Shown here piece by piece: positions 51,419-64,000 of a stretch of DNA of 64,000 bases. Both the position numbers and the translations under genes were made by a program. The DNA is from Rhizobium indicum (GTDB lineage: Bacteria; Pseudomonadota; Alphaproteobacteria; Rhizobiales; Rhizobiaceae): positions 372,001 to 436,000 of the forward strand of contig NZ_CP054022.1 in the NCBI RefSeq assembly GCF_005862305.2, read 5' to 3'. The notes under the pieces are model-generated. The model searched no databases. It had not been told where the DNA came from and saw nothing but the letters and a program-made list of their open reading frames with translations. The number at the start of each line of letters is the position of its first letter. Positions within the stretch are counted from its first letter, which is position 1.

Positions 51419-52414
51419 CTACCTGTCCATGTCAGTCAGTTTCGCCGCTATGGCCGTATCGATGGCGGCAAGATCGACCGCATCCAGCCGGATGGTCCCG
51501 GCCCGTGCATTGTCGAGCGCCTGTGCCGGATTGCGCGCCCCGCAAAGTGCAAAGGTGACGCCCGGCTGCGCCAGCGTCCAGGCAATCACGATCTGGGCGA
51601 TGCTGGCGCCGTGTTTTTCGGCGATCGGTTGGATGGCGTCGGCCAGCGCCGTCGCCTTCTGGCGGTTGCCGACTGAAAAGCGCGGATTGCCCTTGCGCTG
51701 ATCGTCGCCGGAAAACACACGGTCAGGACCGATGGTGCCGGACAGCAATCCTAACGCCAGCGACGAGTAGCTCAGCGTCGCAATGCTGTTGGCCTCGGTC
51801 AGCGGCAGAAGCTCCGCCTCGATCTCCCGGTCGATCATGCTGAACCGCTCCTGGATCGCATCGAGACCACCGGCAGCGATATAGGCATTAAGGTCGTCGG
51901 GGCTGACATTGCTTGCGCCGATCGCCCGGATCTTGCCCGATATGCGCAGGTCTTCCAGCGCCCGCATCGTTTCCTCAATCGGGGTCGTCGGGTCCTGCCA
52001 ATGGGTGATGTAGAGGTCGATATAGTCGGTTCCGAGCCGCCTCAGGCTTTCCTCGACCTCATGCAGGATCGCGTCGCGGCCGAGATAACGGTGCACCGGC
52101 TTGCCGTCCTGTTCGAAGAAATGACGGCCCTTCTGCGTATGCCAGACAAGGCCGCATTTGGTGGCGATGACAGCCTTGTCGCGTCGCCCGGTCAACGCCC
52201 TGCCGACGATCTCCTCGGAACGTCCAAGCCCATAGGCCGGTGCCGTATCGATCAGCGTCACGCCGGCATCGAGCGATGCCTGGATCGCGGCGATGGATTC
52301 GGCCTCATCGGTCCCGCCCCACATCCAGCCGCCGATCGCCCAGGTGCCGAGTCCCACCGCCGAAGCGGAAACGCCCGATTTGCCGATCTCACGTGTCAAT
52401 TGCTGTCCGCTCAT
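51419..52414 (-). CDS. Aldo/keto reductase
   Basis: 331 residues, (beta/alpha)8 NADPH-dependent enzyme. Catalytic tetrad: Asp and Tyr in DTAPAYGLGR, Lys in IATKCGLVW and His in YITHWQDP. C-terminal NADP loop FALCGARNPAQALDNARAG. The ATG at 52414 overlaps the regulator's stop (ATGA) and follows AAGGA; the ATG at 52420 is too close to that site. It may reduce the aldehyde released by the aldolase or interconvert the polyol and its aldose. Confidence 0.9.
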   Translation of the reverse strand: MSGQQLTREIGKSGVSASAVGLGTWAIGGWMWGGTDEAESIAAIQASLDAGVTLIDTAPAYGLGRSEEIVGRALTGRRDKAVIATKCGLVWHTQKGRHFFEQDGKPVHRYLGRDAILHEVEESLRRLGTDYIDLYITHWQDPTTPIEETMRALEDLRISGKIRAIGASNVSPDDLNAYIAAGGLDAIQERFSMIDREIEAELLPLTEANSIATLSYSSLALGLLSGTIGPDRVFSGDDQRKGNPRFSVGNRQKATALADAIQPIAEKHGASIAQIVIAWTLAQPGVTFALCGARNPAQALDNARAGTIRLDAVDLAAIDTAIAAKLTDMDR

Positions 52415-53415
52415 GCCCATTTTCCTTCGCCATTCGCCAGTGCCAGCACGCGGGCACCCGTCGCCTCATCGGTCACCAGCGTATCGAGATGATTGCCGCG
52501 CAGAACGCTGAGGATCGGCCCTGCCTTGTTCGGCCCGCTCGCCACACCGATCTTGGTGGGGATCGAGGCGAATTCCGGCAGAGTCAGGGACACCAGCGAA
52601 CGGTTGAGGCTGTAATCGCAGACCTGGCCATGATCATCGAGCAGATGCGCCAGCAATTCGCAGGAGGCGCCGGAGCGCTCGATCGCGGCGCGGTCGGTGC
52701 TCGAGGACGGATGCAGGTCGTAATAGCTCGAATCGTCCGAGAGGATCGAGCCGATGCCGACCACCGCCACTTTCGCCTCGCGCGCCCGTTTGAAAACGTC
52801 TGCAACGGAACGCATGTTGATCAGCATCGCCCGCTGCTCGGCATCATCGGCAAAGAGGGGCGCATGGATCTGGTAGGAACGCCCCCCAAGCCGGTCAGCC
52901 ATCAAGGTCGAGACATGGTTGACATCGGTATAGTGTTTACCTTGCACGCAGCCGGTTGCCGGAATGACCTCGACATTGAACCGACGCGGCGGCTGCAGAC
53001 CGGCCACGACGGCGCTCACCCCTTTGCCGCCGGTGATGCAGATCGTATCGCCGTCGGTGATCTCTTCCAGCAGCAACCTTGCTGCTGCCTCGCCGACGGC
53101 TTGAAGCGCCGTCTGCGGATTGTCGGACACTGTCGGCACCACCACGGCGCGGCCGATGCCGCCAAGCGCTTGTAGCCGTTCTTCCATATCGACCAGCGGC
53201 TCGACCGGCGACTTGATCTTGATCTCGACCAGGCCGAGCTGGCGGCCGCGCTTGATCAGGCGATTGACGGTGGCGTGCGAGATGCCGAGCTGATCGGCTA
53301 TCTGCGCCTGTGTCAGTCCCTCGAGGAAATGTAGGACCAGGGCCTGGTGCATCTGCCGGGCGATGACGATTTCCTCGCGCGGCGCATTTGCGGGTTTGAG
53401 CTTGGCTATCGGCAT
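52411..53415 (-). CDS. SorC/DeoR-family sugar-binding transcriptional regulator
   Basis: About 334 residues. N-terminal helix-turn-helix (GLTQAQIADQLGISHATVNR LIKRG, with the recognition helix around residues 40-60) and a C-terminal SorC sugar-binding domain (DTICITGGKGVSAVVAGL, VVGIGSILSDDSSYYD, ASGPNKAGPILSVL). Starts at ATG 53415, immediately after the permease stop (TGATATG). EryD of erythritol operons belongs to this family. It probably binds the site upstream of the binding-protein gene and is released or switched by a phosphorylated intermediate. Confidence 0.92.
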   Translation of the reverse strand: MPIAKLKPANAPREEIVIARQMHQALVLHFLEGLTQAQIADQLGISHATVNRLIKRGRQLGLVEIKIKSPVEPLVDMEERLQALGGIGRAVVVPTVSDNPQTALQAVGEAAARLLLEEITDGDTICITGGKGVSAVVAGLQPPRRFNVEVIPATGCVQGKHYTDVNHVSTLMADRLGGRSYQIHAPLFADDAEQRAMLINMRSVADVFKRAREAKVAVVGIGSILSDDSSYYDLHPSSSTDRAAIERSGASCELLAHLLDDHGQVCDYSLNRSLVSLTLPEFASIPTKIGVASGPNKAGPILSVLRGNHLDTLVTDEATGARVLALANGEGKWA

Positions 53416-53416
53416 A

Positions 53417-54409
53417 TCAGGCAGCCTTCCGCTTGTGCAGGAAATGGTCGATCGAGACGGCGGCAAGCAGAATGCAGCCTTTGATCATGTCTTGCCAATA
53501 GACGGACACGTCAAGCAAGATCAACGAGCTTGTTACGACCGACAGCAGGGCAATACCGAGAATAGCCCCAAGGATCGTGCCGGAGCCGCCATTCAGCGAC
53601 GCACCACCGATCACCGCCGCCGCGATGATGTTGAGCTCCATGCCAACACCAAAGGTCGGGGTCGCGGCGCCGAAGCGGGACATATAGATCACCCCGGCAA
53701 CGCCGGACAGCGTGGCGCAGAGCACCGTCACCCAGAACTTTACCTGGTTGGTCTTGATACCGGAATAGAGCGCCGCCTTTTCGTTGCTGCCGGTGTAGAA
53801 CACCTTGCGGAAGGCGGTTGCCCGGCGCAGCAGGAAATCGAACAGCACGACGACCGCAACAAAAATTAGGATCACATAGGGGACGCCATAGAACGTGCCC
53901 TGCCCGACCGCCTTGAACGAGGGCGGCAAGGTAAACAGCGACAGTGGCGTGCCCTTGGTGATGATCAGGCAGATACCACGCACGATGACCATCGCCGCAA
54001 GCGAGGTGATGAAGTGGTTGAGCCCGACAACCGTGACGAAGAAGCCCATGACACAGCCGATCAGACCGCTGGCAATGATCCCGATCAGGGATGCGCTCCA
54101 CGGATCGAGCCCCATCAGGAACAGTGAACCCGACAGCACCATCGAGAAGCAGACCACCGAGCCGACCGACAGGTCGATGCCGCCGACGATCAACAGGATG
54201 GTCATGCCGACGACGACGATCCCTTCCACCGAAAACGACATCAGCATCGCCCGGAAGTTGCCGAGCGTCAGAAAATGCGGCGAGGCAAAACTCATGACAA
54301 TGCAGAGCGCCAGGATGATCGCGATCAGTCCCGCCTCGCGCATCGTCCCCAACCGTTTCCAGCCGGGCGCGCGCGCCTGATGTGCCGTTGCCAATGTAGC
54401 GTCCGCCAT
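53417..54409 (-). CDS. Ribose-type (CUT2) ABC permease
   Basis: About 330 residues, RbsC-like with eight to ten hydrophobic segments. Family signature GGIDLSVGSVVCFSMVLSG in the first half and NIIAAAVIGGASLNGGSGTI in the second. The ATG at 54409 has AGGAG upstream. Companion of the ribose-type ATPase and binding protein. The regulator gene follows by one base. Confidence 0.92.
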   Translation of the reverse strand: MADATLATAHQARAPGWKRLGTMREAGLIAIILALCIVMSFASPHFLTLGNFRAMLMSFSVEGIVVVGMTILLIVGGIDLSVGSVVCFSMVLSGSLFLMGLDPWSASLIGIIASGLIGCVMGFFVTVVGLNHFITSLAAMVIVRGICLIITKGTPLSLFTLPPSFKAVGQGTFYGVPYVILIFVAVVVLFDFLLRRATAFRKVFYTGSNEKAALYSGIKTNQVKFWVTVLCATLSGVAGVIYMSRFGAATPTFGVGMELNIIAAAVIGGASLNGGSGTILGAILGIALLSVVTSSLILLDVSVYWQDMIKGCILLAAVSIDHFLHKRKAA

Positions 54410-54437
54410 GACCCTGTCTCCTGCCCCTGCTTTTTCC

Positions 54438-55979
54438 CTACGCGGCATGCTCTGATGCCTTTGAATTGTTGTGGCCGCCGATCCCCGAGGCGAGCCGCAT
54501 GATCGCTTCCTCCGTCATCGCCTCGCCCTCGACCTCGCCTGCAACGGTGCCTTCGTGGATGACCAGCACCCGGTCGCACAGACCGAGAAGCTCCGGCAGT
54601 TCCGACGAGATGACGACGATGCCGATGCCGGAGCGCGCGAGATCGCGCAGCAGCCGGTGGATTTCCGATTTGGCGCCGACATCGATGCCGCGGGTCGGCT
54701 CGTCCATCAGGATGACCTTGGGATCGACCGCCAGTTGCTTGGCAATCGCCACCTTCTGCTGGTTTCCCCCCGACAGCGACGAAACCGGCATGTCGATGCC
54801 ACCCATCCGCACGCCGAGCCGCCGGACCAGGTTGTGGGCACGATCCGCCTCGGCCTTGGAATTCAACAGTCCCAGTGGTCCGGTCAGCGATTTCAAATCG
54901 AGAACGGCAATGTTCTGGGCAATGGAAAGATCGAGGAAAATGCCGGAGCCTTTCCGGTCTTCCGACAGATAGACGACGCCCGTCTGCGCGGCCTGCGCAT
55001 AAGAGCGCGCCCGCAGCCGCTCTCCATGCAGTTGCACCTCGCCGCCGGTTACCGGCCGCAATCCGCAAATACCTTCGGCTATCTCGGTGCGGCCCGAGCC
55101 GATCAGCCCGCCGACGCCGAGAATTTCACCCTTGCGCAGGTCAAAGCTCACATCCGTGAAGCGGCTGCCGTCGCCGAGATCGCGGACGCTCAGAATGATC
55201 TCGTCGGTCCGCTCCGTCGGCGCCTGCTTTTCCGGATAGAGCTGGGTGATCTCGCGTCCGACCATGCGGCGCACCACATCATCCGGCGTCACGTCCGCCA
55301 CTTTCTCCGTCGAGACATAACGGCCATCGCGAAACACGGTGACCCGGTCGCAGAGGCTGAAGATTTCGGCCATGCGGTGGCTGATATAGATGATCGAAAT
55401 ACCTTGCGCCTTGAGGTCGCGGATGATTCCGAAGAGGATCTGCGTCTCCGATTCCGTCAATGCCGCCGTCGGTTCGTCGAAAATCAGCACCCGACAATCG
55501 AGCGTCAGTGCCTTGGCGATCTCGACAAGCTGCTGGCTGGAGATCGACAGGTCGCCGACTTTGCGGCGCACGTCGATCGGCGCCAGACGGTTCATCACGA
55601 CCTGCGCATCCCGCTCCAGCCGGCCATAGTTCATGAAAGGCGAGCGGCGGCGGTTGGTCGCCGCCATGAACATGTTCTCGGCCACCGTCGCATCGGGGCA
55701 GAGCGCGATTTCCTGATGCACGAGGCCAAGCCCCAGCGATTGCGCCACGGCCGGCGACGTCACCTTTACCGGCGCGCCATCGACGAGAACGTCGCCCTCG
55801 GTCGGCTGCAACACGCCGGCAATGATGTTCATCAGCGTCGATTTGCCCGCGCCGTTTTCGCCGCAAAGCGCATGAACCTCGCCTTTTTCCAAGCTGAAGC
55901 TCACCTCCGTCAACGCCTTCACCGCACCGAAGTGCTTGCTGACATTGCGGATTTCCAGAACCGGCACCGACGCCATCAT
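54438..55979 (-). CDS. Ribose-type (CUT2) ABC double ATPase
   Basis: About 513 residues, RbsA-like with two cassettes. First: Walker [16 protein letters not shown], signature [15 protein letters not shown], Walker [11 protein letters not shown]. Second: the degenerate Walker [17 protein letters not shown] usual in this family, signature [15 protein letters not shown] and [13 protein letters not shown] 55979 has AGGAGGAGA upstream; reading further 5' gives no protein-like sequence. It drives the importer formed with the permease and the TTG-started binding protein. Confidence 0.93.
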
Positions 55980-56044
55980 CGTCTCCTCCTCACGCTTGCG
56001 GTGGCTGTCCGGAGCTTCGTGCCCCGGACAGCCAGCACAAAGGT

Positions 56045-57073
56045 CTATTCCTCGATGCCTTTGGTGCCCCGCCGCTTCAGATACTTGTCCCAGTAGAAAT
56101 CGTCGGCATTGGCTGCCGTGACGATAGACAGGCCGTTGTCGACGAACGGAATGCTCATCGGGTTGAAGCCAACGCGCTTGGCGTCGTTCATCGGGTCGAT
56201 GAGTTCTGGATGCTTGGCAAGCCACAGGAGCATGAAGCCCATGTAACCCTGCATGCCCTGGTTGGGGTTGATCGAGCCGAACACTTCGCCCGCCTTGATC
56301 ATGTCGAGGATGTTGGCGTTGACGTCGGCGCACATCACGAGGATCTTGCCGCCGCTTTCCTTGTTGGCCTGCGAAGCGCCGATGGCCGAATTCGCTTCCG
56401 GCATGAAGACGGCGCCAATGTTCGGATGTGCCTGCACCAGGCTCATCAGGCCCTGATAGGCCTTGTTCGGGTCCTGGTTGGACGCAGCGCGGCCGACCAG
56501 CTTCATATCAGGATATTTTTCCTCCATACGGGCGATGAAGGCGGCGATACGCTTGTCGTGGTTGTCCTGGCCCGGATTTTCCAGAACGGCATATTCACCC
56601 TTGCCACCCATCTTTTCGGCAATCGCGTCGGCCGCATAGGTGCCTTCGCGGGTATTGTCCGAGGTGACGAACGAGATGCGCTTGGAGAGCGGCGCATCGG
56701 CTGCGAAGGTCACGACCGCCGTGCCCTGGTCGATCGCCCGGTTGATCGGCTCGATGAACGGGTCGGAGTTCATCGGGTGAACGAGAATACCGGCCGGGTT
56801 CTGGGCCAGCGCCTGGTCGAAAGTGGCGATCTGCTTGTTGACGTCATATTCCGGCGTGCCGGTATAGGCAGTCTCGCAACCGAGCTGCTGACCGGCCTGC
56901 TTGAACATTTCATAGACCGGGAACCAATATTCGACGCCCGATACCATGACGTTCATGACGTATTTTTCACCGGGCTTGCAGCGGAACGGATTTTCCGTGT
57001 CCGCGCTGGCCATGCCGGCATAAAGCGTCGATGCGAGGACCGCCAATGCGGTCGTGCTTAGAAATTTGCGCAA
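56045..57073 (-). CDS. Ribose-type periplasmic sugar/polyol-binding protein (TTG start)
   Basis: About 342 residues with a Sec signal ([21 protein letters not shown]). The mature protein has RbsB-like features ([40 protein letters not shown]). The start is TTG at 57073: GAGGAGGAAAC precedes it ideally and the signal peptide begins there, while the upstream ATG at 57217 yields non-protein sequence. The TTG start may limit expression. First gene of the polyol operon, downstream of the SorC-type site. Four cysteines, including RCKPGEK and LGCETA. Confidence 0.88.
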
Positions 57074-57178
57074 GTTTCCTCCTCGAGGCCGAAGCCCCTC
57101 CCAAATATCCGGCGGCGCCTCAGCAGCTGCCGATGATCCATTGAAGACCGGAGTTCCTCCTCGAAGTCCGGTATGGGC

Positions 57179-57235
57179 AGATAATCGCAACGGCAGAGCG
57201 CTGTCAATATAATTCATGCTATGAAATATATTTCA
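57179..57235 (-). promoter_or_regulatory. Polyol operon promoter with overlapping palindromic operator
   Basis: Minus strand: a perfect -35 TTGACA (57202-57207) and TTATCT (57179-57184) separated by 17 bp. Immediately upstream lie two overlapping palindromes, TTCAT-GCT-ATGAA (57213-57225) and the perfect 14-mer TGAAATATATTTCA (57222-57235). Site and position fit a SorC-family regulator acting beside RNA polymerase, so activation is as possible as repression. Confidence 0.65.
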
Positions 57236-57440: not shown

Positions 57441-58382
57441 CTACAGCCGATTGGCGCGCAACAAGGTGTCACGAGACAAATATCCCGCAAGCGTCCCATT
57501 CGCGGCTCTAACGTGCAGACCCGGCATCTCACCGGAGAGGATAAGCGCCAAGGCGTCGTGAACCGTGGCGTCAGCGTCGATCTCGGCATCGCCGTTCGAC
57601 GGTTCCGGCGCGGTCATGATCATCGATACGGCAATCAAGCTCAGCCTTTTTATGGCTCGGTCGGGGCCGAGGAAACTCTCGACGAATTCATTGACGGGAC
57701 GAGCGAGGATTTCCTGCGGGGTATCATATTGAAGAAGGCGGCCATCCCGCATGATGGCGATGCGATCACCCATCTTGATCGCCTCATCGAGATCATGGGT
57801 GACGATGACGACGGTCTTCTTCACCTTCCTGAGAATATCGCGGAATTCGTCCTGAAGCCGAACGCGGGTGATCGGATCGATCGCGCCGAATGGTTCGTCC
57901 ATCAGCATAATGGCAGGGTCGGCGGCGAGCGCACGCGCGAAACCGACGCGCTGACGCTGCCCGCCCGACAATTCGTGTGGCAGGCGCTGCCGCATGATGG
58001 CCGGATCAAGCCCCACGAGATCCAACAGTTCGTCGACCCGGCGATCACTGCGCGCCTTTTCCCAACCGAGAAGCCGCGGCACGGTCGCGACATTGCGCGC
58101 GATCGACATATGCGGAAACAGACCGACTTGCTGGATGACATAGCCGATGCTGCGGCGCAGCTCTTTCTGATCGACCCGGGCGATATCTCTGCCATCGACC
58201 AGCACACGTCCCGTCGTGGGTGTTTCCAACTGATTGATCATGCGCATGGTCGTGGTCTTGCCGCAGCCTGAAGGGCCGATCAGGGCAACCGTCGTACCGG
58301 TCTCGATCAGAAGATCGAGATTGTCGACCGCATGCGAGCCGCTTCCGCCGTAATTCTTCGTAACATGGTCGAGATGAATCAT
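57441..58382 (-). CDS. Osmoprotectant/betaine-type ABC ATPase (OpuCA/ProV-like)
   Basis: About 313 residues. Walker A GPSGCGKTTTMRMINQL, signature [15 protein letters not shown], Walker B MLMDEPFGAID. The segment after residue 265 (DADATVHDALALILSG to GYLSRDTLLRANRL) looks like one CBS-type repeat, the module that senses ionic strength in OpuA/OpuC; usually two are present. Last gene of the operon. Such cassettes import quaternary ammonium compounds such as choline, glycine betaine, carnitine, ergothioneine. Confidence 0.9.
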   Translation of the reverse strand: MIHLDHVTKNYGGSGSHAVDNLDLLIETGTTVALIGPSGCGKTTTMRMINQLETPTTGRVLVDGRDIARVDQKELRRSIGYVIQQVGLFPHMSIARNVATVPRLLGWEKARSDRRVDELLDLVGLDPAIMRQRLPHELSGGQRQRVGFARALAADPAIMLMDEPFGAIDPITRVRLQDEFRDILRKVKKTVVIVTHDLDEAIKMGDRIAIMRDGRLLQYDTPQEILARPVNEFVESFLGPDRAIKRLSLIAVSMIMTAPEPSNGDAEIDADATVHDALALILSGEMPGLHVRAANGTLAGYLSRDTLLRANRL

Positions 58383-58404
58383 CCTGATATCCGCTTTCGG
58401 CCGC

Positions 58405-59040
58405 TTAGCGCCGTTGAGTGAAGACGCGCTCCAGTGCGCCGAACGCCAGTTCCGCAAAGATCGCGAGCAACGCGATCGGGACCGCTCCGACGAGAAGGCG
58501 CGGCATGTTCATGATCGCAATGCCGGCATTGATGAAATCGCCAAGCCCGCCGCCGCCGATGAAGGAGGCCAGCGCCGCCCCGCCGATGACCTGGATGGCA
58601 CTCGTCCTGACGCCCGACAGAATCGACGGAACGGCCAGAGGAAGTTCGATCTCCCACAGCATCTGACCCGCGCTCATGCCCATTCCGTCGGCCGCATCGA
58701 TCACCGAGGCGTCGATCTCGCGGATGCCGATGATCGTGCTCAACAGCAGCGGCGGCACGGCAAGGACGATGAGGGCGACCACCGACGGCAACAATCCGAT
58801 GCCGAGAAACGGCATCGCCGCCGACAGGATTGCAAGGCTCGGTATGGAGCGCAAGGCGCCGGCAATATTGACCACTGCAAAGGCGGCACGAGGTGCCCGT
58901 GCAACGGCAAATCCGAGTGGCACGGCAATGACGAAAGCGATGCCGAGCGATAGGACGCACATCAGAAGATGGCGATTGAAAGCGTTGAAGAAGGTACCGG
59001 AGTTGTTGAAGATCCAGCTGAATGCATCGATAGCGATCAT
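58405..59040 (-). CDS. Osmoprotectant-type ABC permease (OpuCB/OpuCD-like)
   Basis: 211 residues, five to six hydrophobic segments. EAA-like loop near residues 125-150 (IDASVIDAADGMGMSAGQML, WEIELPLAVPSILSGVRTSA). Overlaps the second permease gene by four bases (ATGA). Two different permeases plus one ATPase and one binding protein is the OpuC arrangement. Confidence 0.92.
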   Translation of the reverse strand: MIAIDAFSWIFNNSGTFFNAFNRHLLMCVLSLGIAFVIAVPLGFAVARAPRAAFAVVNIAGALRSIPSLAILSAAMPFLGIGLLPSVVALIVLAVPPLLLSTIIGIREIDASVIDAADGMGMSAGQMLWEIELPLAVPSILSGVRTSAIQVIGGAALASFIGGGGLGDFINAGIAIMNMPRLLVGAVPIALLAIFAELAFGALERVFTQRR

Positions 59041-59669
59041 GCTGCTTTACCTCCACTGCGCCGGCGCAGCAGCTTTTCGAACGATGCAAAACAGTAGTCG
59101 GCAAAGAGCGCCAGAAATGACGTCAGCAGCCCGCCCGCGATGATCTTTTCGGGAAACCGCTGGTCGATCCCTTCGAAAATGATGACGCCGAGCCCGCCGG
59201 CATTGATATAGGCGGCAACGGTCGCGATGCCGATGACCGTCACCATGGCAATGCGGATACCGCCGACGATATAGGGCATCGCCAGCGGCAGCTCGACTTC
59301 CCAGATCCGGCGCGCGGTGCCGTAGCCCATGCCATCGGCAGCTTCGAGTATGTCACGCGGAATTGCCTGAAACCCCATGCCGATATTGCGGATCAGGATC
59401 ATCAGCGAGTAGGCGGCAAGACCGGTAATGGCGGGTGCCGCCCCAATCCCCATGACAGGAATGAGAAGCGCAAACAGCGCCAGGCTCGGCACGGCGAACA
59501 GGATACCGGTGAAGATGATGATAACCGCAAAGCTCCGCGGCCGCCTTGCCGCCCATATCCCGACGATCAGCGAGATCACCAGGGCAATGCCGACCGAGGA
59601 AAAAACGAGATACAGGTGCTCCAACAGCGCTTCGAATAGCCGGTCGAGGTGTTTAGGGACCCATTTCAT
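59037..59669 (-). CDS. Osmoprotectant-type ABC permease (OpuCB/OpuCD-like)
   Basis: About 210 residues. EAA-like loop (AIPRDILEAADGMGYGTARR, IWEVELPLAMPYIVGGIRIA). The ATG at 59669 follows GGAGG by about eight bases; the extension to 59840 overlaps the next gene and is not needed. Closely related to its partner permease, suggesting an old duplication. Confidence 0.9.
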   Translation of the reverse strand: MKWVPKHLDRLFEALLEHLYLVFSSVGIALVISLIVGIWAARRPRSFAVIIIFTGILFAVPSLALFALLIPVMGIGAAPAITGLAAYSLMILIRNIGMGFQAIPRDILEAADGMGYGTARRIWEVELPLAMPYIVGGIRIAMVTVIGIATVAAYINAGGLGVIIFEGIDQRFPEKIIAGGLLTSFLALFADYCFASFEKLLRRRSGGKAA

Positions 59670-59706
59670 TGTCGAGACCTCCGCGTCCGGGCGCTCGTTC
59701 GCCTGT

Positions 59707-60525
59707 CTACCATGAGATCCCCAATCTGCGATCGGCGTCGTCGGCTCTCTGCGGCAGGACATCGTAGGCCGACGGAGCGACCGACGAAAATCGCCTGAGG
59801 CCGAGCCGTTCCAAAGCCGCCGCTCCCTCAGGCGTTTCATGCAACGTCACGAGGCTCCGCTGTAACGCTGTGGCGATGTCCGCGGGTAATGTTTGCGCGG
59901 CAACCAACAGCGGCGCAGGAAGCGGATCAGTCGTCGCCAGAATGCGAAGGCCATCGATCGCGTCGCGTTCGTGCATCGACAACAATTGAAAGGCATAAGC
60001 GTCGATCGCGCCCGCATCGATCCTACCATCCTTGAGGGCTGCGACGATGCCTGAGGGATTGAGCAGTGGTCCGACCGTCGTGCTCTGCTTCATCGTGCCC
60101 GCAAATCGGCCGGCAAGGTAGGAGCGCGCCGCGTGGTAGCCCGATTGGGAATCGCGCACGGTCCAGCCCCAGCGTGCCGCAGCGAGATCCGCCACCGCGT
60201 TCACCGGCCCGGTGGAGGCGACGAGGATGTGGCTGGCATAGAACGGCTGGTCCAAAGACCATGCTTCGCTCGAGACGGGTGCAGCAAGGGCAGCCGGTCT
60301 TAGGCCCTCAGGCATGCGCGAAAACGGATAGCCACACATGAAGACCGCTCCCATGTCCGGCCTCGCCCATAACGCCGACAAGGGTGCTGGTGCGGCATGA
60401 GCGATGATCTCCAGCTCGACGCCGGAACGTAGGCTGACCAGCGCAAACAGCGCGTCCCACAGGCCGCGAATGCGCGGACTGAGATTGTACATTCTCGAAC
60501 AGGCGATTGGCTTGGATATGACCAT
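59707..60525 (-). CDS. PhnD-like phosphonate/phosphate-binding-family protein without signal peptide
   Basis: 272 residues of the PhnD/transferrin-like fold: MYNLSPRIRGLWDALFALV, FMCGYPFSRMPEGLRP, then the lobe LAAARWGWTVRDSQSGYHAA and GRIDAGAIDAYAFQLL. PhnD-like proteins are usually exported, but no signal sequence is visible, since residues 1-12 are polar. It may therefore be cytoplasmic, an intracellular ligand-sensing or carrier protein. The following binding protein of the operon (ProX type) already has a signal, so this is not the transporter's own binding protein. Role in the operon unknown. Confidence 0.72.
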   Translation of the reverse strand: MVISKPIACSRMYNLSPRIRGLWDALFALVSLRSGVELEIIAHAAPAPLSALWARPDMGAVFMCGYPFSRMPEGLRPAALAAPVSSEAWSLDQPFYASHILVASTGPVNAVADLAAARWGWTVRDSQSGYHAARSYLAGRFAGTMKQSTTVGPLLNPSGIVAALKDGRIDAGAIDAYAFQLLSMHERDAIDGLRILATTDPLPAPLLVAAQTLPADIATALQRSLVTLHETPEGAAALERLGLRRFSSVAPSAYDVLPQRADDADRRLGISW

Positions 60526-60531
60526 GGCTAT

Positions 60532-61536
60532 TTAGGCGAACCGCAGGCGCTGGCCGATATTCATCTCCCTGGCCTTCTCCACCATGGCGGCGCCGAGCGC
60601 CACGTCGGTCGTGCTGAGGCCGCGATGCCAGAACAGGATCGTCTCCTCGTCGCTCTCGCGGCCGGGTTTCATGCCGCAGACGATCTGGCCGATTTCGGCA
60701 TGCAGGTTCTCGGCCGTCACCTTGCCCTCGTCGACGTGACGGCGAAGTGCTCCGAACGGCTTGCCGGGGCCGCATTGTCCCCAATCGTCGACGACGACCT
60801 TGTCCATGATATCGGTGAGATCGAATTCAAGCGCGCTCATCGTGCCATAGGGCACGACGAAGGCCCCTTTCTTCACCCATTCCGTCTTGAACAGCGGCGC
60901 CGGTTCCGGCAGGCGGCTGGCCTCGACCATGATATCGGCGCCCTTGAGGCAATCCTGCCAATTGTCGGTGACGATGATCTTCTTGCCGATATCTGCCTCG
61001 AGACGCCTTGCGAAGGCATCGCGGCTTTCCGGGCGGCGTGAGTGTACGCGGATTTCATCGAAATCGAAGAGATGGTCGAGAAGCCGGACATTCCAGTAAG
61101 AGGTTCCGCGAGCACCGATATGGCCGAGAATCTTGCTGTCCTTGCGGGCGAGATACTTTGCGCCAAGGGCGGTCACGGCGCCGGTGCGCATGTCGGTGAT
61201 AGCAGTTGCGTCGATGATGGCCTTTGGCACGCCCGTGTTCGGGTCGAACAGGTTGAGGACCGCAAGCTCCGAGGGCAGATCGACCTTATAGTTGTCGACG
61301 AAATCGCCGACGACTTTGACGCCGGCATAGTTCAGCGCTTTGACATAACCGCGAAGCACGTTGAAATGGCCTTTGTCGGAGCTCTCCGGCACAAGATGAA
61401 CACGCGGCTCGATGACGGTTTCGCCCCTGCCCTGCGCATCCAGCGCTTTCGACACCGCATCGAGAATCTCGTCATTCGTCAGCGCCAGCGCCTTGGCATC
61501 GAGGGCGTTGAGATAATCGATCCAGATTTCCTGCAT
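60532..61536 (-). CDS. Ornithine-cyclodeaminase/mu-crystallin-family enzyme
   Basis: About 334 residues. NAD(P)-binding KILGHIGARGTSYWNVRLLD in place of the usual GSGxQA, with the N-terminal substrate region (IEPRVHLVPESSDKGHFNVL) and the conserved Asp/Arg-type ATAITDMRTGAVTALGAKYL. Family members reduce cyclic imino acids or keto acids, or deaminate ornithine. The dinucleotide motif is atypical (GARGTSYW), so cofactor preference could differ. Six bases before the PhnD-like gene. It may process the keto or imino acid left after removal of an amine from a betaine-type amino acid. Confidence 0.82.
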   Translation of the reverse strand: MQEIWIDYLNALDAKALALTNDEILDAVSKALDAQGRGETVIEPRVHLVPESSDKGHFNVLRGYVKALNYAGVKVVGDFVDNYKVDLPSELAVLNLFDPNTGVPKAIIDATAITDMRTGAVTALGAKYLARKDSKILGHIGARGTSYWNVRLLDHLFDFDEIRVHSRRPESRDAFARRLEADIGKKIIVTDNWQDCLKGADIMVEASRLPEPAPLFKTEWVKKGAFVVPYGTMSALEFDLTDIMDKVVVDDWGQCGPGKPFGALRRHVDEGKVTAENLHAEIGQIVCGMKPGRESDEETILFWHRGLSTTDVALGAAMVEKAREMNIGQRLRFA

Positions 61537-61654
61537 TTCCCGCTTCTCCACATTCCTGTCCGGCTGCTGAACGGACGGATTTTCGAACAAACACCGTAAG
61601 AAGATCGCCACACCAGATCGCGGCCGGATCGATACCCGGCCGCGGGCGTGACAA

Positions 61655-62542
61655 TCATTTCGGCAGCAGGCCGTTTTCCTTGAGGAATTCAACCGCCACG
61701 TCCTTGGCTTCCTCGTGATCGGTCTCGACCTTGGCATTGAGGACGCGCATTTTCTCGTTATCGAGATGGGTGCCGACGGCTTCCAGCAGTTCGGCAACCT
61801 TCGGATTGGCCTTCAGCACGTCCTGGCGGACAACCGGGGCCACGTAGTAGGGCGGAAACAGACCCTTGTCGTCTGCCAACGGCACGAGGTTCTTCGAGCC
61901 GATCTGCCAGTCGGTCGCGGCGCCATTGGCGACGTCAATGTCCTTTTGTTCCAGCGCATCATAACGAAGGCCAAGCTTGGCAAACTGCTTGAACTCCTTG
62001 AACTCGGCGTCGTAGACACGCTTCAGGCCGGGCAGGCCATCGGCGCGGTCCGGAAATTCAGCGCCGCCGCCGAAGACCAGGGTCTTGGAAACCTTGGCGA
62101 GATCCGACAGGCTTTTCAGATTGTTGGCCTGCGCCGTTTCCTGCCGGACCACGATGACATAGCCATTGTTGATGCCGCTCGGCTTCAGCCAGGTGAGGTT
62201 GAACTGCTTGGCGTAGAAATCCTTGACCTGCGTGTAGACCTTCTCGGCATCGGTCGACATCTCACCCTTGACGACAGAAGCCAGCGCCGTCCCGGTATAT
62301 TCCGGATAGAGATCGATCTCGCCGGCTACCAATGCCTGGTGAGCAATCAGCGTGCCGCCGAGGTTGATCTTGCGCTCGACGGTGATGCCGGCATTTTCCA
62401 AAACGGCGGCGTACATTTCGGCGAGGATGAACTGCTCGGTGAAATTCTTGCTGCCGACCTTGATGGTCTCCGCGGATGCAGACTGGAACATGGCGGCTGT
62501 CATGATGCCGGCTGCAAAGATGCCTTTTGTCCAATTTTTCAT
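61655..62542 (-). CDS. ProX/OpuCC-type quaternary amine-binding protein
   Basis: About 295 residues with a Sec signal (NWTKGIFAAGIMTAAMFQSASA). The mature start ETIKVGSKNFTEQFILAEMY is the hallmark of the OpuCC/YehZ-type choline/betaine-binding family, whose Tyr/aromatic residues bind trimethylammonium groups. Start ATG 62542 lies six bases after GAGGGA. It is the periplasmic receptor of the OpuC-type importer, separated from it by the enzyme and PhnD-like genes. The EgtU ergothioneine receptor of Gram-positives is a fused member of this family (from memory). Confidence 0.9.
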   Translation of the reverse strand: MKNWTKGIFAAGIMTAAMFQSASAETIKVGSKNFTEQFILAEMYAAVLENAGITVERKINLGGTLIAHQALVAGEIDLYPEYTGTALASVVKGEMSTDAEKVYTQVKDFYAKQFNLTWLKPSGINNGYVIVVRQETAQANNLKSLSDLAKVSKTLVFGGGAEFPDRADGLPGLKRVYDAEFKEFKQFAKLGLRYDALEQKDIDVANGAATDWQIGSKNLVPLADDKGLFPPYYVAPVVRQDVLKANPKVAELLEAVGTHLDNEKMRVLNAKVETDHEEAKDVAVEFLKENGLLPK

Positions 62543-62656
62543 AGTCATTCCCTCTTGTTGACTTTTCAATGAACGAACCGACGGCATTCCCCGGAATAAC
62601 CGTCGGCATGACCGGTCGGCACCCTGCCCTTCTTGCCGGGGCAGTGGCGAACCGGC

Positions 62657-64000
62657 TTATTGCGGGCCGAGCCCGATCAATGCGGCAATCGTCGCAAAAT
62701 CCGGCCCTTGCGCGCGATCCTCTTCAAGCGCCGGGACGTGGGTGCGCACGAAAGCATAGGCTTGCGCCGATCCCTTGCCCAATTCGCCCGAGACGCCTCT
62801 GAGTTCGACGGCCTGTACCGATGCGATCAGTTCGATGGCGACCAGATAGCGCAGGCGCTCGACGATTGCCTGCGCCTTTGCCAAAACACTCGGAGCCATC
62901 GATGCCTGGTCTTCGACGCCATCGGCGACAGGAATGGGCGAAAGCGAAACCGGCATGGCCAGATGGCGGATTTCGGCCTCCATGGCCGAGACGGTCTTTT
63001 GCACGGTCGCAAAACCGGTACGGCTCTGGCCCATCGGGGTCAGAAAGCGTGGCAGGTCGGACATAGCAGGCGACATGATTTTCATGATCCGATAGGCGGT
63101 GCCTGCCGCACAATGTGCCATCGCCTGCCCCAGCCTTTCCCAGGCGAGCACAAACGCGGTCATGTCAAAATTGCCGTGTGAAAGAATGACGCCTTCGGAT
63201 GCGATCACGACAGGATTGTCGCTGGAACTGACGAGCTCAATGTCGGTCGCCTGCCTTGCCTCATCGATCGCATGCCTCAACGCGCCCCAGACCTGCGGTG
63301 TGCAGCGATAGCTCAAAGGATCCTGGAGACGCCTTGCTGCATCGGCGGCAAGCAAGGAGCTGCCCGAAAGAAGCTCCATCAGCTGAGCCGCGACGCGGCG
63401 CTGCCCAAAGGCCGGTCTTGCAGCCAGAGCGCGGTCGTCGAAGGCACTGACATTGGCGCGAAACGCTTCGAAATTAACGGCAATCGCCTTCAGGGACCAA
63501 TCGAAGAGCTGCTCGATATCCACAAGCGTCAAGCAGGCGAGGCCGATGGAGAGGCTGTTGGCCACAACAAGCGCATGCCCGTCCTTCGGCGCGAATTCGA
63601 GAGGCTTCAGGCCGGCCCTTTCAAGGGCGATGGCGGCCGGCAGCACTTCGCCGCCAAGCTCGATCTCACCGAAGCCCAGAAGGCCCCGGCTCATATGGGC
63701 AAGCGGCGCCAAATCCGCCGCACCGATCGAGCCCAATGAGGGGACGACAGGATGCACACCTGCGTTGATGGCGGCAATCAGACCGTGGAAGACTTTCAGC
63801 GAAACGCCGGAACCGCCCGCCGCCATGCCGGCGGCCCTGACCGCCATCATCGCCCGCACGAATTCCTGGGCAAGCGGTTCTCCGACGCCGACCGAGCGGG
63901 CTTGCGGCACGCGCATCTGGAACGCCACCAGGTCTTCCGTTGCAAGTCGTGTATCGATCCCTGCTCCCAGTCCCGTCGTCAGGCCATAAACCGGCAGATC
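62657..64000 (-). CDS. Histidine/aromatic ammonia-lyase homologue lacking the MIO triad, cut by window edge
   Basis: Member of the histidine/phenylalanine ammonia-lyase superfamily (about 447 residues visible; the N-terminus lies beyond 64000). Conserved blocks: DLPVYGLTTGLGA, SYRCTPQVWG, SSDNPVV, LSHGNFD and VEDQASM. The loop at 63713-63733 reads GSIGAADLAPLAH where canonical enzymes have GSVGASGDLAPLAH: the Ala-Ser-Gly that cyclises into the electrophilic MIO group is replaced by Ala-Ala with one residue missing. A Lys (codon 62996-62998) sits 28 residues before the conserved Glu (62912-62914). Without MIO it cannot act as an ordinary histidase. In ergothionase, as I recall, the lack of MIO is tolerated because trimethylamine is a good leaving group. 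Alternative: decayed or non-lyase. Confidence 0.8.
   Translation of the reverse strand, partial: DLPVYGLTTGLGAGIDTRLATEDLVAFQMRVPQARSVGVGEPLAQEFVRAMMAVRAAGMAAGGSGVSLKVFHGLIAAINAGVHPVVPSLGSIGAADLAPLAHMSRGLLGFGEIELGGEVLPAAIALERAGLKPLEFAPKDGHALVVANSLSIGLACLTLVDIEQLFDWSLKAIAVNFEAFRANVSAFDDRALAARPAFGQRRVAAQLMELLSGSSLLAADAARRLQDPLSYRCTPQVWGALRHAIDEARQATDIELVSSSDNPVVIASEGVILSHGNFDMTAFVLAWERLGQAMAHCAAGTAYRIMKIMSPAMSDLPRFLTPMGQSRTGFATVQKTVSAMEAEIRHLAMPVSLSPIPVADGVEDQASMAPSVLAKAQAIVERLRYLVAIELIASVQAVELRGVSGELGKGSAQAYAFVRTHVPALEEDRAQGPDFATIAALIGLGPQ

Follow-up and report, generated by a model that had tools for sequence, protein, structure and literature searches.

The ergothionase of Treponema denticola (PDB 6s7j) is a relative of histidine ammonia-lyase (HutH, HAL) that has lost one residue of the site for the 4-methylideneimidazole-5-one (MIO) cofactor. 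A MIO-less lyase also takes part in the five-step ert pathway, together with thiourocanate hydratase, thiohydantoin desulfurase, ErtD and ErtE. In this work, we analysed a stretch of 64,000 nucleotides of Rhizobium indicum (the window, G000:C2:372001-436000, on contig NZ_CP054022.1 of a 7.5 Mb genome in six contigs whose nearest named relatives are the Rhizobium leguminosarum group), at the end of which such a lyase is encoded together with an OpuC-type ABC importer. As far as it can be read from its genes, this operon, which is real and conserved, probably takes up a trimethylated histidine compound and releases trimethylamine from it by means of the cofactor-less lyase. We tentatively propose that it would serve to take up and degrade a histidine betaine that has no thione, ergothioneine-2-sulfonate being the most likely one and hercynine its main rival.

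The last 6.6 kb of the window holds the genes for the importer, the lyase, a protein of the ornithine cyclodeaminase (OCD) family and a PhnD-like protein, all intact and all on the minus strand:

57441-58382, minus strand: ABC ATPase of the ProV/OpuCA type (PF00005; TIGR01186 proV, 312.7 bits against a cut-off of 326.6)
58405-59040, minus strand: ABC permease 2, ProW/OpuC type (PF00528; ProW model best, below its cut-off)
59037-59669, minus strand: ABC permease 1, ProW/OpuC type (PF00528; choline/ProW models best, below their cut-offs)
59707-60525, minus strand: protein with a PhnD-like oxyanion-binding-protein fold (Phosphonate-bd, 5e-28; no leader segment ahead of the domain)
60532-61536, minus strand: OCD/mu-crystallin-family protein, alanine dehydrogenase-like (PF02423 OCD_Mu_crystall, 1e-54; PDB 1omo, 1.6e-44)
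61655-62548, minus strand: OpuC/ProX-type substrate-binding protein (OpuAC PF04069, 2e-67; signal-like N-terminal segment, by eye)
62657-64162, minus strand: MIO-less HAL-family lyase (Lyase_aromatic PF00221, 8e-137)

A first-pass annotation had already grouped these genes; they are indeed found together, and the gene order is kept across related loci. Both the lyase and the operon run past base 64000. The GTG start of the lyase lies at 64162, 162 bases outside the window, where it overlaps the stop of the upstream repressor gene, and the operon extends further upstream on the same strand to a total of twelve genes. Upstream of the lyase, nearest first, are genes for a HutC-type GntR repressor, a MaoC-type hydratase, a short-chain dehydrogenase/reductase (SDR) and a coenzyme A (CoA)-transferase, with a 4-base overlap at each of the four junctions from the CoA-transferase through the lyase. 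The first gene of the operon, 100 bases beyond the CoA-transferase, encodes a YeiH-type membrane protein (PF03601) and adjoins a divergent LysR gene.

In a sample of 49 related loci from named records, some of them cut by contig ends, the OCD gene was present in 45 and the PhnD-like gene in 46. These extra genes are true partners of the lyase, in roles that we can only suggest. The OpuC-type importer was found in 24 loci, the CoA-transferase in 23, the SDR in 24, the MaoC-type hydratase in 27, the repressor in 26 and the YeiH-type protein in 18, and every OCD, binding-protein, first-permease and ATPase gene counted shares the strand of the lyase. The conserved core consists of the lyase, the OCD-family protein and the PhnD-like protein; the importer and the CoA module are lineage-specific.

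By both sequence and predicted fold, the window lyase is closest to ergothionase. In the alignment, the Ala-Ser-Gly-Asp of the HutH MIO site is shortened to Ala-Ala-Asp, with the Ser column empty, and the protein, which does not have the Ala-Ser-Gly triad, reaches 386 bits with the HutH model TIGR01225, below the cut-off of 539. The same Ser is missing in every one of the 64 lyases collected that carry Arg at HAL position 83, which rules out a sequencing error as the cause, so that the MIO loss claimed previously is real. In listings that give them a name, the genes for such lyases appear as histidine ammonia-lyase, hutH or HAL/PAL/TAL family lyase. Five PF00221 genes occur in the genome; the MIO triad is intact in two of them and not in the other three, which are that of the window, one on contig C1 and one on contig C3. 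The C1 gene heads an ert operon with the complete pathway (C1:2295-2303 kb; L010:7717-15075), in which the four other ert enzymes exceed their NCBIfam cut-offs.

The window lyase has Arg at position 83, where HutH and the T. denticola ergothionase have His (positions were assigned by motif matching, not superposition; we take the residue numbers and roles to be those of HAL). His-83 is also found in the C1 lyases and in the lyase of locus L049, which is 66% identical to that of the window and lies divergently beside an ert operon; it is the residue of all six lyases scored beside ert operons. Neighbourhoods were scored for about 10 kb on each side where the contig allowed. Among 85 MIO-less rows, many of them near-copies, Arg occurs in 64 (58 with the OCD gene nearby, none with ert genes, two with hutU), His in 20 (six with ert genes, six with the OCD gene, eight with neither) and Ala in one; this tally leaves out rows with the MIO serine, the rows of L010 and L011, and the C1-type lyase pieces at the ends of L197, L203 and L204, which were not scored. 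The Arg row of L151 comes from a distant member of the family; without it, the clade of the window lyase comprises 63 Arg lyases, 57 with the OCD gene nearby and none with thiourocanate hydratase. Within this clade, every lyase scored beside this OCD gene has Arg-83; five of the six His rows beside it are C3-type lyases that share their locus with an Arg-clade lyase, and the sixth is in L151. L151:12942-16006 holds a tandem pair of strongly diverged HAL-family genes whose MIO site reads Met-Asp-Gly-Glu, and an OCD gene of the same subfamily lies 3 kb away.

A tree of 59 rows was built with the position-83 column removed, leaving out seven names of a drop list and rows within 93% of a kept row. 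Two changes (bootstrap 2-3) account for the residues at this position: when rooted on HutH, there is one His-to-Arg change and one reversal in five rows, and one of the lyases in which His was restored has an ert operon as its neighbour. Several branches are long and the deep forks are therefore unsure, and the support for the whole-clade branch (91/95) is below the mark of the program. That position 83 may define families of MIO-less lyases is our own reading of the alignment, with no published rule behind it.

The repressor connects the operon with histidine utilization. It passes the HutC model TIGR02018 (278 bits, cut-off 220), does not reach the stricter PRK14999 (237 against 424) and is 52% identical to a HutC encoded in the hut cluster of this genome. 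Moreover, in L164 the cassette lies inside a hut operon, after hutU, a BCCT-type transporter that scores below the equivalog cut-offs, a C3-type MIO-less lyase, hutI and hutG; the cassette of L157 is convergent to a hutU at a contig end; and in L165 the OCD and PhnD-like genes lie within a hut operon that lacks a lyase of this kind. The link to histidine breakdown made by the first-pass annotation is thus retained, as a suggestive one, since it is seen in three loci out of many. The urocanase or thiourocanate hydratase gene that it sought beyond base 64000 is absent from the operon: no urocanase was recognised among the open reading frames read upstream to about 82 kb in window position, and the hut cluster and the ert operon each hold one of the genome's two urocanase genes. 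The C3 lyase (L011:15590-17077, region of G000:C3:376113) lacks three residues at the MIO site and keeps the Ser-His pair; within the hut cluster of the genome it follows an ABC importer of the amino-acid type. It has a relative in the L164 hut operon and is a candidate hercynine lyase.

According to the explanation that we favour, the OpuC-type importer would take up the betaine, and a 1,2-elimination by the MIO-less lyase would release trimethylamine and yield a urocanate-type acid that the HutC-type repressor may sense. If the substrate is the sulfonate, the OCD-family protein could reduce C2 and expel sulfite, so that urocanate would enter the hut pathway, while the YeiH-type protein would export the sulfite and the PhnD-like protein would bind an oxyanion. 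A more specific version, which we regard as rather unlikely in its entirety, makes the OCD-family protein a reductive desulfonase (2-sulfourocanate to urocanate and sulfite), attributes a change of lyase substrate, from thione to sulfonate betaine, to the His-to-Arg exchange at position 83, with a return in one lineage, and sends the product in Rhizobium also along a CoA-dependent side-chain route. If this were true, legume-associated bacteria would own a dedicated route for oxidised ergothioneine, apart from ergothioneine breakdown, a single residue would help to predict the betaine substrate of MIO-less "histidine ammonia-lyases", and both a conserved OCD subfamily and a leaderless PhnD-like protein would gain a testable function.

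As to the two partner proteins, ornithine cyclodeaminase proper is ruled out, as the OCD-family protein reaches the equivalog cut-off of none of 13 listed families (best TIGR02371, 194 bits against 409). The first-pass description of the other protein as PhnD-like is kept with one correction: it looks cytoplasmic, because its sequence begins directly at the binding domain. No enzyme of the PBP fold such as MqnA was among the 50 matches listed for it, which are mostly oxyanion binders and transferrins, although the protein may still be one. Near OCD genes of other loci we noted an FAD oxidoreductase with GcvT domains (L105:5115-7532, also L107 and L163), dimethylglycine dehydrogenase-like according to Pfam on the L105 copy only, and a TauE/SafE-type protein (PF01925; L150:4145-4909) about 4 kb from an OCD gene of the same subfamily.

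It must be taken into account that several observations weigh against the sulfonate proposal. The nucleotide motif of the OCD-family protein is GARGTx, in the window protein and 14 aligned relatives, instead of the family's GxGxxA (GCGTQA in 1omo), and therefore the protein may not use NAD(P). The OCD gene was found in 36 genomes, of which 24 were taken into the lyase classification (eight from the genus of the window or from the sister genus g2, each having a lyase match, and four others were left out); an Arg-83 lyase occurs in eight of these 24 genomes outside Rhizobium and the sister genus, with 30 of the 38 lyase matches classified and unclassified ones in G891, G1089 and G823, among others. 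In G576 the OCD gene lies in a hut operon and an ordinary HutH is the only lyase match. Taken together with the count of eight, this indicates that the OCD-family protein has some other or wider job. In turn, G087, G198, G121 and G150 have an Arg-83 lyase and no OCD gene at E <= 1e-60, and a strict pairing of lyase and OCD is rejected by both sets of genomes. The YeiH-type protein was not found in 31 of the 49 loci, and the CoA-transferase, SDR and MaoC-type hydratase, coupled as they are to the lyase, have no role in the model. Furthermore, the genome's own ert locus (19.5 kb) contains no OpuC-type importer, so the importer of the window might also carry ergothioneine and be shared with its uptake. 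The substrate assignment is a leading guess.

Among the other substrates, hercynine comes first, at what we consider a low probability. The lyase would then give urocanate directly for the hut pathway, and the OCD-family and PhnD-like proteins would be on a side task with demethylated or oxidised forms of histidine. The HutC-type repressor and the position of the cassette in L164 and L157 are in agreement with this, and Arg-83 could presumably donate a hydrogen bond to the bare ring nitrogen of hercynine, but not accept one from the two NH groups of the thione. However, the C3 lyase would be the more natural hercynine lyase, and the conserved OCD-family and PhnD-like proteins and YeiH would be left unexplained. 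Less probable still is another aromatic betaine, such as the tryptophan betaine hypaphorine, which occurs in legumes; its aryl-acrylate would be shortened in a beta-oxidation-like manner by the CoA-transferase, MaoC-type hydratase and SDR. The chaining of these genes with the repressor and lyase by short overlaps, and their recurrence in the sample of loci, speak for this proposal. Nevertheless, there is no thiolase among the twelve genes of the operon, in L164 and L157 it is hut genes that accompany this type of lyase and OCD, and the OCD-family protein again has no explanation. The papers found on hypaphorine, bacteria and trimethylamine include, judged by titles, none on such a lyase.

The last candidate is ergothioneine itself, as proposed by the first-pass annotation, with the operon providing a second ergothionase and the importer missing from the ert locus. 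Indeed, the closest solved relative of the lyase is ergothionase, and 10 of the 20 ert loci examined have an OpuC-type binding protein, 34-39% identical to that of the window; those near ert genes in L189, L191, L194, L195, L197, L198 and L201-L204 are candidate ergothioneine importers. Among 397 genomes of the order, in a survey that scored the three best first-look candidates per genome and in which absences are soft, the lyase type (E <= 1e-95) was found in 21, thiourocanate hydratase in 29 and both in five, and the genus mates G023 and G187 have the hydratase and, with the same softness, no lyase match. Since there is a separate ert pathway with its own lyase, the Arg-83 clade stays away from ert genes and co-occurrence is limited to those five genomes, ergothioneine is the least probable substrate of the window lyase, and it is very likely handled by the separate gene set; what stands of the first-pass annotation, besides the histidine link, is the betaine-type importer and the lyase logic, with ergothionase as nearest relative of the MIO-less enzyme.

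Other genes were noted nearby. The window also carries a separate ABC import operon of the sugar type (51419-57217), which includes genes for an aldo-keto reductase and a sugar-sensing regulator and was judged unrelated from its open reading frames. Two adjacent similar secreted-looking proteins (about 480-500 residues), presumably resembling DUF1254/DUF1214 proteins, lie downstream of the LysR gene at L006:16452-19459, and a sulfatase-like open reading frame, recognised by eye, lies about 15 kb upstream of the operon (L007:5560-7197), with no sign of membership.

Searches of the literature returned no paper on thiourocanate hydratase, none on hercynine with lyase, trimethylamine and urocanate, and nothing on topic for ergothioneine in Rhizobium leguminosarum. 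For the catabolism of ergothioneine sulfonate, the passages found were mentions citing one paper (Yan, Huang and Zhang 2022, ACS Catal.), which is represented here by its title as cited in PMC13405746 and PMC9967237. Judged by that title, its pathway possibly shares substrate and lyase type with the operon, and the paper may even be about these enzymes, which limits the novelty of the operon.

Among the characterised systems, HutH shares the family PF00221 with the window lyase and differs by its MIO. The ert pathway has the MIO-less lyase in common with the operon, which has none of the later ert enzymes, the ergothionase partner thiourocanate hydratase included. Ergothionase shares with the window lyase the fold, the same one-residue MIO deletion, Leu in place of Tyr280, Arg283 and Glu414; however, the two are 30% identical over the structural alignment, and ergothionase has Ser-His at HAL positions 82-83 and Ser at 195 where the window lyase has Ala-Arg and Val. 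The importer has the same make-up as those of the EgtU/OpuC/ProX type, with an OpuAC-type binding protein, two permeases and an ATPase. For EgtU, PMC9732360 gives a Y-to-F switch and G244 as residues of ergothioneine specificity. The best PDB match of the window binding protein is a nicotine/acetylcholine sensor scaffold (1e-62, 215 bits), ahead of ProX (2e-51, 178 bits) and EgtUC (2e-48, 168 bits).
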